Source: Exiguobacterium sp. 9-2 (GTDB lineage Bacteria; Bacillota; Bacilli; Exiguobacteriales; Exiguobacteriaceae). From it: a stretch of DNA of 64,000 bases. The stretch is taken from positions 212,001-276,000 of the forward strand of contig NZ_CP142850.1 in the NCBI RefSeq assembly GCF_036287235.1. Reading direction: 5' to 3'. Below, one piece after another: positions 34,580-41,785 of this stretch (the stretch's first letter is position 1; the number at the start of each line of letters is the position of its first letter). The notes beneath the pieces are model-generated. The model saw nothing but the letters and a program-made list of their open reading frames with translations. It searched no databases and was not told the origin of the DNA. A program made the position numbers and the translations under genes.

Positions 34580-34903
34580 ATTTATGGGCCCCTTTGTCCT
34601 TTTGTAGTGTTTCAATAGTAATAACATGACAGGAATGCTAGAGACGAGCAAGTCTGATGATTCCGCAAATGTGTTTCATCGTTTCATTACTAAAGTGTTG
34701 TCTTGAATTTTATCACGAACGTTCGATAAACGAAACTCGCACGACTTAAAATCGACACATTCCATAGCCGGAGGAATAACATGCTTGCAATCGGGTACAT
34801 TATCCTATAGTATATGTTCAGGTGAACGTGTAATTATTGTTTTTGTCATAGTCATACAATGTATTTTTGATTTTACAGATAGTCAGAGAAAGGGATGACA
34901 GAG
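34580..34903. promoter_or_regulatory. folE2-terC divergent intergenic region
   Basis: The 324-base region holds no gene I can support. It contains a ten-base palindrome CGAACGTTCG (34716-34725), a possible promoter for the first TerC gene (TTGCAA at 34785-34790, TATAGT at 34806-34811, spacing 15), an inverted repeat GTTCAGGTGAAC just after it (34816-34827), and a nine-codon reading frame (34781-34810) behind GGAGGAATAAC. No yybP-ykoY manganese riboswitch was recognised, although such switches often precede TerC genes. Confidence 0.35.
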
Positions 34904-35761
34904 ATGGATTGGCAGTTATTACTTCAATATGCCTGGGTCGTACTCGTCTTGATCGCGCTTGAAGGATTACTTTCGGCAGATAATGCACTCGTACTCGCGG
35001 TCATGGTTAAGCACTTACCAGGAGAACAACAAAAGAAAGCACTTTTTTATGGATTAGCTGGAGCATTCGTTTTACGGTTCGCGGCACTGTTCGCGATTTC
35101 ATTCCTCGTCGATATTTGGCAAATCCAAGCACTTGGAGCAGCGTACTTGCTCATCATGGGATTACGGCATATTTATAAGACCGCTAAGGCAAGGAAACTC
35201 GGTGAGAATCATGGCGCCGAAAATGAACTCGATGCAGAGCCGAAGTCGGAAGAGCCAGTTTCAAAAGGTGAATTCTGGCGGACAGTCGCGAAGATTGAAT
35301 TCGCTGACTTAGCATTTGCTGTCGATTCGATTCTTGCTGCAGTTGCTTTAGCAGTCGCACTTCCGAACTGGGGATCGGGCGAAATCGGTGGTTTGAACAC
35401 CGGTCACTTCATCGTCATCTTAACGGGTGGTTTAATGGGTGTTGTCCTCATGCGTTTCGCGGCCCGTGTCTTCGTGAAATTACTTGCAGAACGTCCAGGT
35501 CTTGAAACAGCAGCCTTTGCAATCGTTGCCTGGGTCGGTGTGAAGCTAGCTGTTCTTGCGCTCGAACATCCGAAATACCATGCATCAATCGAAGGAACAG
35601 TCTTCGAAGCCTTAAAACTTCCGGAAGGATTTGCTCACAGTACACCGTGGCAAGCATTCTTCTGGACGGTCATGGTCGGTCTTGCCCTTTGGGGTTGGTT
35701 CTCTTCACCAAAAACGAAAGCAAATCCAGATGCTGAAAAGAAAGTTGATCAAAACTTATAA
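34904..35761 (+). CDS. TerC family integral membrane protein, copy 1
   Basis: Membrane protein of 285 residues with about seven to nine segments. The two half signatures LEGLLSADNALVLAVMVKHLP and EFADLAFAVDSILAAVALAVALP contain the Asp residues typical of the TerC/Alx family, whose members are linked to manganese export and metalation of secreted proteins. An acidic hydrophilic loop (about 98-120) separates the halves. I prefer the second ATG (MDWQLLLQ) because AGAAAGGG lies nine bases before it. A paralogue lies next in the same orientation, separated by a terminator. Confidence 0.88.
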   Translation: MDWQLLLQYAWVVLVLIALEGLLSADNALVLAVMVKHLPGEQQKKALFYGLAGAFVLRFAALFAISFLVDIWQIQALGAAYLLIMGLRHIYKTAKARKLGENHGAENELDAEPKSEEPVSKGEFWRTVAKIEFADLAFAVDSILAAVALAVALPNWGSGEIGGLNTGHFIVILTGGLMGVVLMRFAARVFVKLLAERPGLETAAFAIVAWVGVKLAVLALEHPKYHASIEGTVFEALKLPEGFAHSTPWQAFFWTVMVGLALWGWFSSPKTKANPDAEKKVDQNL

Positions 35762-35768
35762 GAAATGG

Positions 35769-35797
35769 AACGATCCGTCGATGACGGGTCGTTTTTT
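35769..35797 (+). terminator. Rho-independent terminator between the TerC paralogues
   Basis: AACGATCCGTC, loop GAT, GACGGGTCGTT, then T residues. Confidence 0.85.
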
Positions 35798-35925
35798 GGT
35801 GTTAGGTTTTCTTAAACAATGGGAATAAAACACAAGGTTAAGTACTTCAGTCGAGCTTTCATCTTTTTCTTTCCGATCGACCGGCATATAATGAATAGAC
35901 TGAACAAAAAAGGGGATTCGTTAGT

Positions 35926-36690
35926 ATGGATATTGGATTAATTACACAGTATGCGACCGTCGGGCTCGTACTGATTATTTTGCAAGGGTTATTATCTGCC
36001 GACAATGCGATGGTCATGGCTGTCCTAGTCCGACCGTTACCAGACGATCAGCGTAAAAAAGCACTTTTCTATGGTCTCGTCGGGGCACTCGTCTTACGTT
36101 TCGTCGCAATCTTCTTTGCCTCGTACCTAGCGACGATTTGGGAGCTTCAGGCACTCGGAGCGATATACCTCTTTTACGTGGCGTTTAAAGGAATCGTTGA
36201 GGCACGATCGAATAAACACCAAGTACCGGACTCGATTGCTTCACAAAAAGCCTCACCGAATTTTTGGTGGACGGTTGTTAAAGTCGAATTCTCTGATTTA
36301 GCGTTCGCTGTCGACTCGACACTTGCCGCTGTCGCCATGGCAACGACACTGCCGATGATCGGAGGAACGATTGGTGGTCTGAATACAGGTCAATTCTGGG
36401 TCGTCTTCTTCAGTGGGATCATTGGTCTCGTCATTATGCGTTACTTTGCGAGTTGGTTCGTTGTCTTGCTCCAAAAGCGACCAGGTATCGAAGAAGCAGC
36501 GTTTTGGCTTGTCGCTTGGGTTGGCGTAAAACTCGTCGTCATGACACTTGCGCATCCGTCAATCGACGTCTTGCCGCATGAGTTTCCAGAGAGTACACTA
36601 TGGCAAACGATCTTCTGGGTCGTACTTGCCCTGATTTTAATCATTGGTTGGTTCCGTAGCGGAAGTAGTTCAACCAAATCAGCAAAATAA
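35926..36690 (+). CDS. TerC family integral membrane protein, copy 2
   Basis: Paralogue of the preceding protein, 254 residues, clearly from a tandem duplication: LQGLLSADNAMVMAVLVRPLPDDQRKKALFYGL and EFSDLAFAVDSTLAAVAMATTLP repeat the same motifs. The internal hydrophilic loop is shorter and less acidic than in copy 1. It has its own promoter region (TATAAT at about 35889) and is preceded by a terminator, so the two copies can be expressed separately. Metal specificity is unknown; AAAAAAGGGG precedes the start. Confidence 0.88.
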   Translation: MDIGLITQYATVGLVLIILQGLLSADNAMVMAVLVRPLPDDQRKKALFYGLVGALVLRFVAIFFASYLATIWELQALGAIYLFYVAFKGIVEARSNKHQVPDSIASQKASPNFWWTVVKVEFSDLAFAVDSTLAAVAMATTLPMIGGTIGGLNTGQFWVVFFSGIIGLVIMRYFASWFVVLLQKRPGIEEAAFWLVAWVGVKLVVMTLAHPSIDVLPHEFPESTLWQTIFWVVLALILIIGWFRSGSSSTKSAK

Positions 36691-36741
36691 TACAATGGCG
36701 GGCAGGGTACTCTCTGTCCGTCTTTCGTTAGGAGAGATTTT

Positions 36742-37875
36742 ATGCAAAACGGTAATTTCATTCGGATGCTGACGCGGATGCAAAACGTTCCACGGTGGGA
36801 TGAATATGCACCACGTTTTCCGGATAACGCAGCCAGTCATAGCTTTCGTGTTGCCTTATTCAGTTTGATGGCAAGCTATTTAGAAGAAGCAGACGGACAA
36901 ACACCAGTCGACCGCCTGACATTGCTCGGAAAAGCCCTATTCCATGACATGAACGAGGTCATCACCGGACCAATCAAACACCGGACGAAAAAAGAGCCAA
37001 CGCTACATGCACACATTCAGGCAATGGAACAACAGGCGAGTGAACAGCTCGTCGCCTTACTCTCGAAGTCGCTTCAACCAGCCTTTACGACGTATCTTGT
37101 TCATGCAGAAGATGATTCACCGGAAGGACGAATCGTTGAAGCCATCGATACGTTTGATGCGATGTTATATGCACGCCGGGAAGCACGGATGACAGAGTCC
37201 GTCTTTTTCGAACAAAAAGCAGCGGAATTACAGGCTGTTCTGGAACGACACCCACTCGTTTCAATCCGTCGCTTGACACAATCCGTCATGGAAGAGGACG
37301 AGATGTCTCATTTTATCGAAAACGTCTTGATGATGGATACGATTCGGCGCTGGAAAGGACGTTTTAATACGATTGATGATAACGACGCGACACATGCGTT
37401 TCGAGCAGCTTCGCTTGGTATCTTCAATGGATTGATTGAATCAGAAAAATACGGCGTCACGATCGACATTGAAGAAGTCGTCTCTCGTCTCTTGTGCCAT
37501 GATCTCGTTGAAGGAACGACAGGAGATGTTCTTGGACCTGTCAAACATGCGACGCCGGTCACGGCAGCAGCCTTCGAAGCTTATGAACGGGCAGAAGGAG
37601 AGACGTTGATCAACAATTTACCAGAAGACATCCGAGCACCGTTCCGTCGATTCGTCGTTGAAGCAAAAGACGAGACGTACGAAGGGCAAATGGTCGATGT
37701 GATCGATAAACTCGATGCGTTGATCAAAATGAACATGGAACGAAAGTTAAATGGTGTCGAGTATGAGACCGGTTATCGGGCCCAACTCAAAAAGGTACAG
37801 ATGACATATGAAAATCCATCGGTCGTCTTTTTCCTCGCTTATGTCTTGCATGATTTGGATTACGTGACGTCATGA
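36742..37875 (+). CDS. Tandem-HD hydrolase (two fused YfbR-like domains)
   Basis: Metal-dependent phosphohydrolase of 377 residues formed of two HD domains in a row. Domain 1 (about 1-185) has ASHSFRVA, LFHDMNEVITGPIKH and IDTFDAML; domain 2 (about 190-377) has ATHAFRAA, LCHDLVEGTTGDVLGPVKH and IDKLDALI. Both thus keep the His, His-Asp and Asp ligands. RWDEYAPRF and RWKGRF precede the motifs as in YfbR 5'-nucleotidases, which act on deoxynucleoside monophosphates as single-domain dimers. The fusion would build that dimer in one chain. The MFS exporter gene overlaps its stop by four bases, which links the two. Confidence 0.85.
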   Translation: MQNGNFIRMLTRMQNVPRWDEYAPRFPDNAASHSFRVALFSLMASYLEEADGQTPVDRLTLLGKALFHDMNEVITGPIKHRTKKEPTLHAHIQAMEQQASEQLVALLSKSLQPAFTTYLVHAEDDSPEGRIVEAIDTFDAMLYARREARMTESVFFEQKAAELQAVLERHPLVSIRRLTQSVMEEDEMSHFIENVLMMDTIRRWKGRFNTIDDNDATHAFRAASLGIFNGLIESEKYGVTIDIEEVVSRLLCHDLVEGTTGDVLGPVKHATPVTAAAFEAYERAEGETLINNLPEDIRAPFRRFVVEAKDETYEGQMVDVIDKLDALIKMNMERKLNGVEYETGYRAQLKKVQMTYENPSVVFFLAYVLHDLDYVTS

Positions 37876-39074: not shown

Positions 39075-39090
39075 ATACTTGTTAGTCAAA

Positions 39091-39125
39091 AACGTTTGTC
39101 CTATTTATGGGACGAACGTTTTTTT
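39091..39125 (+). terminator. Rho-independent terminator after the MFS gene
   Basis: AACGTT and GTCC arms pair to GGAC and AACGTT around TATTTATG, then T residues. Confidence 0.85.
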
Positions 39126-39158: not shown

Positions 39159-39185
39159 TGAAACATTTTCTAGATGGTTTGCGTA
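39159..39185 (+). promoter_or_regulatory. SigW-like promoter of the flotillin operon
   Basis: TGAAAC, 17 bases, CGTA. The ECF sigma factor SigW of Bacillus reads TGAAAC, about 16 bases, CGTA, and its targets include the flotillin operon yuaFGI. The -35 is exact. It ends 41 bases before the first gene. Confidence 0.7.
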
Positions 39186-39225
39186 GAAGAGGGAGAAAGC
39201 CAGTACTTCAGAAAGGAGTGGAGCG

Positions 39226-39453
39226 ATGAAACAGGAGTTGCCGCGTGAACGAGAACCGTCGATTGAGGCAAGATTAGCACGTCATTTTGCCGCGCAAAAA
39301 AAATACTTACGTCGTCAAGAAGAGGCGATTGATCAGCGAGACAAAGAGTTGGCTCGTTTATTGTATGAAGAAAACCGGACTGCGTATCAGCGGGCTTATC
39401 ACGAACTGTATGGTTCACATCCTTACATCGAGGTGAACGAAAATGGACGTTAG
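39226..39453 (+). CDS. Small hypothetical charged protein, first gene of the flotillin operon
   Basis: Soluble protein of 75 residues, rich in Arg, Glu and Lys, with a predicted long helix (about 11-60: SIEARLARHFAAQKKYLRRQEEAIDQRDKELARLLYEENR, heptad-like). No hydrophobic segment. I do not know the family. AGAAAGGAGTGGAG precedes the start, and the stop overlaps the next gene by eleven bases, so it is a true member of the operon. It may be a cytoplasmic partner of the NfeD-like or flotillin protein; that is inferred from position only. Confidence 0.72.
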   Translation: MKQELPREREPSIEARLARHFAAQKKYLRRQEEAIDQRDKELARLLYEENRTAYQRAYHELYGSHPYIEVNENGR

Positions 39454-39964
39454 TACACTTTATTTATATGCGTTAGCGGCCGCTGCTTGTGGTGTGTTTG
39501 TGTCCATCCTATTCTCAGACGTCATTCCGGGTGTCGATCAAATTTTCCATCCTACGTTGATCTTATCTTTCGTCATCATCACGTCAGCGATCGGCTTCGG
39601 ACTCGAACAACTGAGTCCGCTTGGTTCAATTTTGATTTTGATCATCAGCAGTGTCATCGCGTTGTTGGTGACGACGCTGATGCATATTTTTTTGTTCGTT
39701 CCGATGGCACAAGCCGAACAGTCGCTTGGATTTTCGGAACAGATGCTAGAAGGGCGTAGCGCAACCGTCATCGTGCCGATTCCGACTGAAGGATATGGTG
39801 AAATTTTACTTGATGACGTCTCAGGACGTGTATCGAAGTCAGCCGTCCTGTTTGAAGGTCCTGCCTTACCACAAGGAACAAAAGTACTTGTTATCGAGAT
39901 TAAACAAGGCGTCGCGTCTGTCGTGACGTACCCCCAACAATGGAAAAAGGAGATGTTTACATGA
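39443..39964 (+). CDS. NfeD-like membrane protein (YuaF type)
   Basis: Membrane protein of 173 residues with three or four hydrophobic segments (about 5-25, 36-52, 58-82) followed by a C-terminal OB-fold-like domain (about 103-165: GRSATVIVPIPTEGYGEILLDDVSGRVSKSAV..VLVIEIKQGVASVV). This is the short NfeD1b layout, which lacks the ClpP-like protease domain and is always found beside flotillin genes. The start overlaps the upstream small gene and its stop overlaps floT by four bases. In Bacillus the partner YuaF affects membrane fluidity together with flotillin. Confidence 0.87.
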   Translation: MDVSTLYLYALAAAACGVFVSILFSDVIPGVDQIFHPTLILSFVIITSAIGFGLEQLSPLGSILILIISSVIALLVTTLMHIFLFVPMAQAEQSLGFSEQMLEGRSATVIVPIPTEGYGEILLDDVSGRVSKSAVLFEGPALPQGTKVLVIEIKQGVASVVTYPQQWKKEMFT

Positions 39965-41481
39965 ATCCAGTGTTAATCGTATCGATCGTTGCAGTCGCAT
40001 TGATCGTTGCATTGATTGTCCTATTCATCACGAAGTACCGAACGGTTGGTCCGGAAGAAGCATTAATCGTATCCGGTAGTTATCTTGGAGGACGCAACGT
40101 TAATACCGATGAGTCCGGCAACCGGGTGAAGATTATTCGCGGCGGCGGAACATTCGTGTTACCTGTCTTCCAACAAGCAACACCACTTAGCTTGTTATCG
40201 AGTAAACTCGAAGTCACAACACCAGAAGTGTACACGGAGCAGGGTGTACCGGTCATGGCGGACGGAACAGCGATCATCAAGATCGGCAGCTCGATTTCTG
40301 AGATTGCAACAGCAGCAGAGCAGTTCCTCGGAAAATCAAAAGAAGAGCGCGAAGGGGAAGCGCGTGAAGTTCTTGAAGGGCACTTGCGTTCGATCCTCGG
40401 TTCGATGACTGTCGAAGAAATTTATAAGAACCGCGATAAGTTCTCGCAAGAAGTCCAGCGGGTCGCATCACAAGATCTGGCGAAGATGGGACTCGTCATC
40501 GTTTCGTTTACGATCAAAGACGTCCGAGATAAAAATGGATACTTAGAATCCCTCGGTAAACCACGGATTGCACAGGTGCGCCGTGATGCGGACATCGCAA
40601 CAGCAGACGCGGAAAAAGAGACACGCATCAAACGAGCGGAAGCTTCAAAAGATGCGAAAAAAGCAGAACTCGAACGTGCAACGGAAATCGCTGAAGCGGA
40701 AAAAGAAAATCAGTTGAAGATGGCAGACTACCGCCGCGAACAAGATATCGCGAAGGCGAAAGCCGACCAAGCGTATGATCTTGAGAATGCACGTGCACAA
40801 CAAGAAGTCACCGAGCAACAGATGCAAATCAAAATCATTGAGCGTCAAAAACAAATCGAGCTCGAAGAACGAGAAATCCTCCGTCGTGAGAAACAATACG
40901 ATGCGGAAGTCAAAAAACGTGCCGATGCCGATCGTTACTCGATTGAGCAAGCTGCCCAAGCGGACCGTGCGAAGCAATATGCGGAAGCAGATGCAACGAA
41001 ATACCGGATTGAAGCATCGGCAAAAGCGGATGCAGAACGAATTCGTCTGGATGGTCTTGCGAAAGCGGACGCTGAGCGAGCACAGGGGGAAACAGAAGCA
41101 GACATCATTCGTTTGAAAGGTCTTGCCGAAGCGGAAGCGAAAGAAAAAATCGCGCAGGCGTTCGAACAATTCGGACAAGCAGCAATCCTTGACATGGTCA
41201 TTCGGATGATGCCAGAGTACGCGAAAGAGATTGCAGCACCACTCGGTAACATCGATAAGATCACGGTCGTCGATACAGGTAGTGGTGAAGGTGGCGGTGC
41301 GAACCGTGTCACAGGGTACGCAACGGATTTGATGGCGTCACTGCAAGAGACGTTAAAAGCGTCGTCAGGATTAGATGTCAAAGAGTTGATCGAGAACTTC
41401 TCTGGTAAAGGAACAGCAAAGCCGTTAACGGTCAACTTGAATTCTCATGATGCGGTGGCAGCGTCGAAAACAGAAGACTGA
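39961..41481 (+). CDS. floT: Flotillin-like SPFH protein
   Basis: Scaffold protein of functional membrane microdomains, 506 residues. One N-terminal hydrophobic segment (about 3-25) is followed by the SPFH/band 7 domain (about 27-200, with LEVTTPEVYTEQGVPVMADGTAIIKIG) and a long Ala/Glu/Lys coiled-coil domain (about 205-430, with repeated EAEA/KADAE units). AAAAAGGAGATG lies before the chosen ATG; an ATG seven codons earlier lies within the upstream gene. The SigW-like promoter ahead of the operon suggests response to cell-envelope stress. Confidence 0.93.
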   Translation: MNPVLIVSIVAVALIVALIVLFITKYRTVGPEEALIVSGSYLGGRNVNTDESGNRVKIIRGGGTFVLPVFQQATPLSLLSSKLEVTTPEVYTEQGVPVMADGTAIIKIGSSISEIATAAEQFLGKSKEEREGEAREVLEGHLRSILGSMTVEEIYKNRDKFSQEVQRVASQDLAKMGLVIVSFTIKDVRDKNGYLESLGKPRIAQVRRDADIATADAEKETRIKRAEASKDAKKAELERATEIAEAEKENQLKMADYRREQDIAKAKADQAYDLENARAQQEVTEQQMQIKIIERQKQIELEEREILRREKQYDAEVKKRADADRYSIEQAAQADRAKQYAEADATKYRIEASAKADAERIRLDGLAKADAERAQGETEADIIRLKGLAEAEAKEKIAQAFEQFGQAAILDMVIRMMPEYAKEIAAPLGNIDKITVVDTGSGEGGGANRVTGYATDLMASLQETLKASSGLDVKELIENFSGKGTAKPLTVNLNSHDAVAASKTED

Positions 41482-41530
41482 TATCATTACTATGTACTAG
41501 TAGAAGTAGTTTCTGAAAGGATATCTCATC

Positions 41531-41746
41531 ATGGATGGTTTAGCGTTACTGCAAGAGCGTTGGATGTTGTTGCTCCCGTTCGTTGTCGTCTTCTTGATCA
41601 ACGTCGGGTTATTGACAGCCCTTCTAAAGAAGCGAAATGATTTACCGAAGATGCTGGTCTTTGGAATGGGTGGGATGGCGATCGTATTCATCGTCTCCTC
41701 GCTCGGCTTAAGCGTAGCACTGCTATTCTTCGGCTATAATTCCTAA
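41531..41746 (+). CDS. Small two-segment membrane protein, last gene of the flotillin operon
   Basis: Protein of 71 residues with two hydrophobic segments (about 12-33 and 43-68) joined by a short basic loop KKRNDLPK. Family not recognised. It starts 49 bases after floT, with GAAAGGATA upstream, and is followed by a strong terminator, so it is probably cotranscribed with floT. The size suggests a membrane microprotein that could act in the flotillin assembly; this is inference from position. Confidence 0.7.
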   Translation: MDGLALLQERWMLLLPFVVVFLINVGLLTALLKKRNDLPKMLVFGMGGMAIVFIVSSLGLSVALLFFGYNS

Positions 41747-41785
41747 AAAAACGGGACAGACTCGATTAAGAGTCTGTCCCGTTTT
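41745..41785. terminator. Bidirectional terminator between the flotillin operon and degV
   Basis: AACGGGACAGACTC and GAGTCTGTCCCGTT around GATTAA, with A and T runs on the two sides. Confidence 0.92.

Follow-up and report, generated by a model that had tools for sequence, protein, structure and literature searches.

A small gene in constant first position in a SigW-type nfeD2-floT operon of Exiguobacterium

In Bacillus subtilis, the flotillin FloT and the membrane protein NfeD2, there called YuaF, form one assembly (PMC4928834, available sections), and both FloA and FloT are controlled by SigW (PMC8581546, available text). PspA has already been described joined to YuaF-type and flotillin genes (excerpts of PMC11237479), and the accessible text of PMC8581546 also reports recruitment of PspA by an SPFH protein. 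The function of bacterial flotillins and their soluble partners are still debated. A SigW-type flotillin operon is thus already known from Bacillus, and what is new here is a gene, orf1, found genus-wide in first position in the Exiguobacterium operon. We found no account of orf1 in literature on Exiguobacterium flotillin or SigW, on flotillin-NfeD operons or on flotillin with small proteins, a search that took in few subscription papers.

The operon and its promoter

The locus lies in a window (the whole 64-kb stretch of DNA that was analysed) within a single 3.06-Mb contig (G000). A sequence-only reading of the window had described a promoter followed by orf1, nfeD, floT and orf4, and all of these are present (Table 1). 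As that reading also held, the two small genes overlap or closely adjoin the known ones: orf1 begins 40 nt after the CGTA end of the promoter and overlaps nfeD by 11 nt, the nfeD stop and floT start share ATGA (a 4-nt overlap), and orf4 follows floT after a gap of 49 nt. Terminator-like hairpins on both flanks indicate that the unit is bounded by the terminator of the MFS gene upstream and by the hairpin before degV downstream; the latter has a short T run, was missed by the terminator listing and was picked up by its folding energy. No terminator was listed between floT and orf4, and no known RNA element was found in the unit with Rfam. Elsewhere in the window (34895-37875), two tandem homologous membrane proteins of 288 and 254 aa, TerC-like by eye, are followed by a 377-aa protein (36742-37875) that, again by eye, resembles two HD domains in a row.

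Table 1. Features of the flotillin unit, in window coordinates
Feature	Position	Strand	Remarks
Terminator-like hairpin closing upstream MFS gene	39088..39123	+	16-bp stem, -19.6 kcal/mol, z -6.1
ECF/SigW-type promoter TGAAAC-17-CGTA	39159..39185	+	kept in 18/18 floT-bearing Exiguobacterium genomes
orf1, 75-aa charged protein, predicted two-helix hairpin (residues 13-33, 37-62)	39226..39453	+	
GAGGTGA, nfeD Shine-Dalgarno inside orf1 3' end	39430..39436	+	identical in 18/18 genomes
nfeD, 173-aa YuaF/NfeD2-type membrane protein	39443..39964	+	2k14 YuaF match; PF01957 below cut-off
floT, flotillin, 506 aa from true start ATG 39961	39961..41481	+	NF058507, PF01145, PF15975
Scar of lost orfX	41482..41530	+	orfX, 136-aa membrane protein gene, retained by six same-clade relatives
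orf4, 71-aa protein, two hydrophobic segments, clade-specific at floT locus	41531..41746	+	
Hairpin between orf4 and convergent degV, likely terminator	41748..41785	+	16-bp stem, -29.2 kcal/mol, z -8.6

The flotillin had been named correctly, with a score of 837.5 bits against the FloT equivalog NF058507 (cut-off 700) and further matches to PF01145 and PF15975. The product of the gene before it had been called NfeD1b-like. This label is wrong, because NfeD1b is reserved for proteins defined by an N-terminal ClpP domain (PMC2636767, available part) and the 173-aa product has no ClpP-type family match. Its best PDB match is 2k14 YuaF (E 5.4e-15, residues 89-162), which gives it a C-terminal OB-type domain like that of YuaF, and PF01957 is matched at E 0.005, below the family cut-off; the protein is of YuaF/NfeD2 type.

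We compared the locus across a family of 38 genomes (19 Exiguobacterium and 19 of a sister genus) and a wider sample of 398 genomes of the class. Eighteen of the 19 Exiguobacterium genomes bear floT and form two clades of nine, A and B. The putative promoter consists of TGAAAC (39159-39164), a 17-nt spacer and CGTA (39182-39185). Its motif is not above chance within the 64-kb window (1 match against 0.42 expected) and is above chance genome-wide, with 35 matches against 7 for a reversed-pattern control. Only one gene in the genome passes the cut-off of the SigW model TIGR02948 (match beginning at 153425), and this gene has its own copy of the motif just upstream, the site ending at 153373. In alignment, TTTTGAAAC and CGTA are retained in all 18 floT-bearing genomes with spacers of 16 or 17, and the intergenic DNA around them has diverged, chiefly from one clade to the other and inside clade B. 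The locus thus joins the two sequence marks of a SigW regulon member, a TGAAAC-16/17-CGTA site ahead of it and a SigW gene encoded in the same genome, and the earlier proposal of a SigW-like promoter is upheld by the copy ahead of the SigW gene, the genome-wide excess and the retention within the genus. In the sister genus, TGAAAC-17-CGTA precedes the first gene in 12 of 12 loci examined (of 19 genomes). The available text of a cold-adaptation paper on E. antarcticum (PMC4247613) mentions sigW, giving contradictory directions for its regulation, and does not mention flotillin.

Orf1, the constant first gene product

The operon is led by orf1 in 18/18 floT-bearing Exiguobacterium genomes, with constant order and spacing of orf1, nfeD and floT, so that conservation in relatives bears out its proposed place as an operon member. 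The one floT-less genome, G025, is also without orf1. Orf1 therefore behaves within the genus as a dedicated partner, one found always and only with floT, would behave (18/18 floT-bearing and 0/1 floT-less genomes), the loss of floT in G025 counting as one event. Between the MFS gene and degV, where floT and orf1 are missing, G025 encodes on the minus strand (L196, 8096-9193) an unrelated membrane protein of 365 aa that carries histidine boxes and that by eye we take to be desaturase-like. The named relatives of orf1, nine loci, are all from Exiguobacterium, and no other genus among the 398 class genomes has the gene. Weak matches in eight of the 398 (E 0.001-0.008) fall inside unrelated frames of 361-368 aa, the one in G209 more than 1 Mb from floT, and do not count as orf1. 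Two separate weak matches, in G032 and G033 (31% and 29% identity), lie away from floT and were likewise set aside.

Between clades, Orf1 proteins are 53-59% identical over their full length in alignments and share the invariant blocks LARH-AAQKKY-RR and LL-EENR. The 29 clade A pairs give orf1 a dN/dS of 0.054 and the 28 clade B pairs one of 0.087, both computed without the last four codons, values that indicate strong purifying selection; between clades dS is saturated, and differences per codon position (0.24, 0.28 and 0.60) show a third-position excess. The corresponding clade A values are 0.022 for nfeD, 0.003 for floT, 0.11 for orf4 and about 0.11 for orfX. By dN/dS, both orf1 and orf4 are real coding genes.

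AlphaFold2 models Orf1 as a two-helix hairpin (residues 13-33 and 37-62) with loose ends and most residues above 90 pLDDT; helix 1 is basic, with a charge of +3. Profile and structure searches gave no family or structure match: the structure search returned generic two-helix hairpins, for example of encapsulated ferritin-like proteins, and no hit reached E 0.001. Near the end of orf1, GAGGTGA lies within E-V codons and is followed by the nfeD start in 18/18 genomes. The conserved Orf1 tail EVxEDGR is therefore forced at least partly by the ribosome site and start codon of nfeD, and is no evidence of a binding motif. The same arrangement would be expected if orf1 served mainly as a leader whose translation governs that of nfeD by way of the overlap, its protein doing little. 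We consider this improbable, because amino-acid selection is strong across the frame even with the last four codons excluded, the invariant residues lie far from the overlap and the predicted fold is confident.

Because Orf1 matches no family or structure, a partner role has to be argued from gene order. We think it somewhat probable that this locus represents, in Exiguobacterium, the SigW-controlled envelope-stress operon of nfeD2-floT (yuaFG) type and, jointly with this, that Orf1 is a soluble, cytosolic accessory partner of the NfeD2-FloT assembly. Consistent with this are the constant gene order in 18/18 genomes, the joint absence of orf1 and floT in G025, the low dN/dS, the kept promoter, the confident hairpin model and the nfeD Shine-Dalgarno inside orf1 in 18/18, together with the FloT-NfeD2 assembly of B. 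subtilis (PMC4928834, in the sections available) and the sister-genus and PspA cases described below. Envelope stress would act through SigW to turn the unit on, and FloT would oligomerise in the membrane together with NfeD2. Orf1 would be the first product made, in step with NfeD2, and as a soluble, charged hairpin of two helices may then bind the cytosolic side of the assembly, at the NfeD2 OB domain or the FloT coiled coil. The 3' genes orfX and orf4 would encode optional membrane proteins, subject to gain, exchange and loss from one species to another; the window species is already without orfX.

A charged, soluble protein encoded first in a SigW-type unit might, instead of partnering FloT, have a regulatory function, acting for instance on SigW or RsiW. 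Orf1 has no DNA-binding or anti-sigma family match, and its gene is tied to nfeD-floT and not to sigW, which makes a regulatory role highly improbable. As a candidate partner in the FloT operon, orf1 is short, genus-wide, translationally coupled and easy to delete, tag and pull down. If Orf1 has no role there, it is an ordinary lineage-specific small gene.

The variable 3' end

Unlike Orf1, Orf4 is not always found with floT: orf4 stands at the floT locus in nine of the 18 floT-bearing genomes, all of clade A. In six of these nine loci orfX lies between floT and orf4; in these six relatives it overlaps orf4, and in four of them a TGATG run is common to the floT stop and orfX. The window species has lost orfX, as have G030 and G036, and all three retain a 49-nt scar; the four-gene arrangement is thus a reduced one. 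Of the nine clade B genomes, two have an intact orfX and one a truncated copy. The gene was found at no other place in the other Exiguobacterium genomes searched; beyond the genus, two weak matches at E 0.003-0.007, of which one contains a stop, were dropped.

Relatives of orf4 (29-39% identity) occur at unrelated loci in two clade A, two clade B and ten sister-genus genomes. One of them, in G026 (C8, L072, 1498-2421), also encodes 71 aa ending in GYNS; it adjoins a gene for a secreted protein with a phospholipase A2-like motif by eye, with a secreted nuclease-like protein near. The sequence-only reading had proposed both flanking small proteins as dedicated microdomain components. That orf4 lies inside the hairpin-bounded unit with no terminator listed after floT, and overlaps orfX in six relatives, fits this proposal. 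We nevertheless hold it to be very unlikely, since orf4 is absent from the floT locus in half of the genomes (9/18), is parted from floT by orfX in 6/9 loci, and relatives of it turn up at unrelated sites in both genera. Orf4 is best read as a general small membrane protein riding in the operon in one clade. What therefore stands of the first description is a flotillin operon of SigW type that carries extra small genes, of which orf1 is a dedicated member and orf4 is not.

Comparison of G028 (L086) and G037 (L090) points to local exchange of orfX between species. Identity peaks over orfX, at 95.6% against 89.5% for floT and 83.8% for nfeD, and dS is 0.08 for orfX against 0.65 for floT and 0.90 for nfeD. 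In G023 (L089), an orfX remnant of 54 aligned residues lies 15 to 176 nt past the floT match and is followed by an unrelated gene for a 259-aa membrane protein, which marks the gap between floT and degV as a turnover spot.

The first position in other genera and in known systems

In the sister genus, a 133-aa charged helical (coiled-coil) protein is encoded first in 12/12 loci examined, with the nfeD start at its end. Outside the family, we located floT by tblastn at 48 loci from 47 genomes (G187 twice), of which three have pspA beside the operon. In G216 it stands ahead of nfeD behind a SigW-type site, in G176 it closely precedes nfeD in the same orientation, and in G166 it immediately follows floT. 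Among the loci listed, most of the others begin with nfeD. Homology of Orf1 to the 133-aa protein or to PspA was rejected. Orf1 has no significant relation to the 133-aa protein (hhalign probability 0.5%) or to PspA_IM30 (1.1%, with no Pfam match), and we retained a functional likeness as a rival explanation.

These cases raise the tentative idea, which we rate as possible and no higher, that the leading position of SigW-driven nfeD2-floT modules is a slot for a helical effector of the cytosol, refilled in evolution by unrelated proteins: Orf1, the 133-aa coiled coil and, in some other Bacilli, PspA. Flotillin-NfeD2 assemblies would in that case be docking platforms for interchangeable membrane-repair effectors, with Orf1 a new minimal effector family, and there would be an evolutionary reason to seek a cytosolic NfeD2-FloT effector and a link to PspA-type membrane repair.

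A narrower proposal is that Orf1 and the sister-genus coiled coil are functional stand-ins for PspA, small effectors of the cytosol binding stressed membrane and recruited by a flotillin-NfeD2 scaffold. They occupy the slot that pspA has in G216 and G176, pspA lies just past floT in G166, and helix 1 of Orf1 is basic (+3); PspA is also encoded with YuaF-type and flotillin genes in the available parts of PMC11237479 and is recruited by an SPFH protein in those of PMC8581546. We judge such substitution unlikely. Profile comparisons of Orf1, the coiled coil and PspA with each other are not significant (probabilities 0.1-1.1%), pspA adjoins the operon in only 3/48 outside loci, and a PspA_IM30 match elsewhere in 19/19 Exiguobacterium genomes (8 over cut-off) leaves no obvious need for a replacement. 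In the sister genus 11/19 genomes have such a match, none over cut-off. The match in G000 (C1:617459-617905, minus strand) reaches 31.5 bits against a cut-off of 33.9; its 232-aa frame is kept throughout the genus and is a candidate for a divergent PspA.

Our preferred reading, Orf1 as a probable accessory partner of NfeD2-FloT, sets the Exiguobacterium operon beside three described systems. It shares with B. subtilis yuaFGI (nfeD2-floT-yuaI) a SigW-type promoter and a YuaF-type NfeD gene directly before floT (PMC2636767, available part). It begins with orf1 where yuaFGI begins with yuaF, and the acetyltransferase gene yuaI is absent, orf4 and, in relatives, orfX following floT instead. Like the PspA-YuaF-flotillin operons (PMC11237479, excerpts), it joins the gene for a helical protein of the cytosol to YuaF-type and flotillin genes; however, Orf1 is only 75 aa long and has no detectable relation to PspA, and the Exiguobacterium unit contains neither a CesT/Tir chaperone nor an AAA gene. 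Finally, B. subtilis pspA-ydjGHI (PMC8581546, available text) is likewise a SigW operon with a cytosolic helical protein first and an SPFH protein last, but there the SPFH protein is YdjI and not FloT, no NfeD is encoded and the first protein is PspA.
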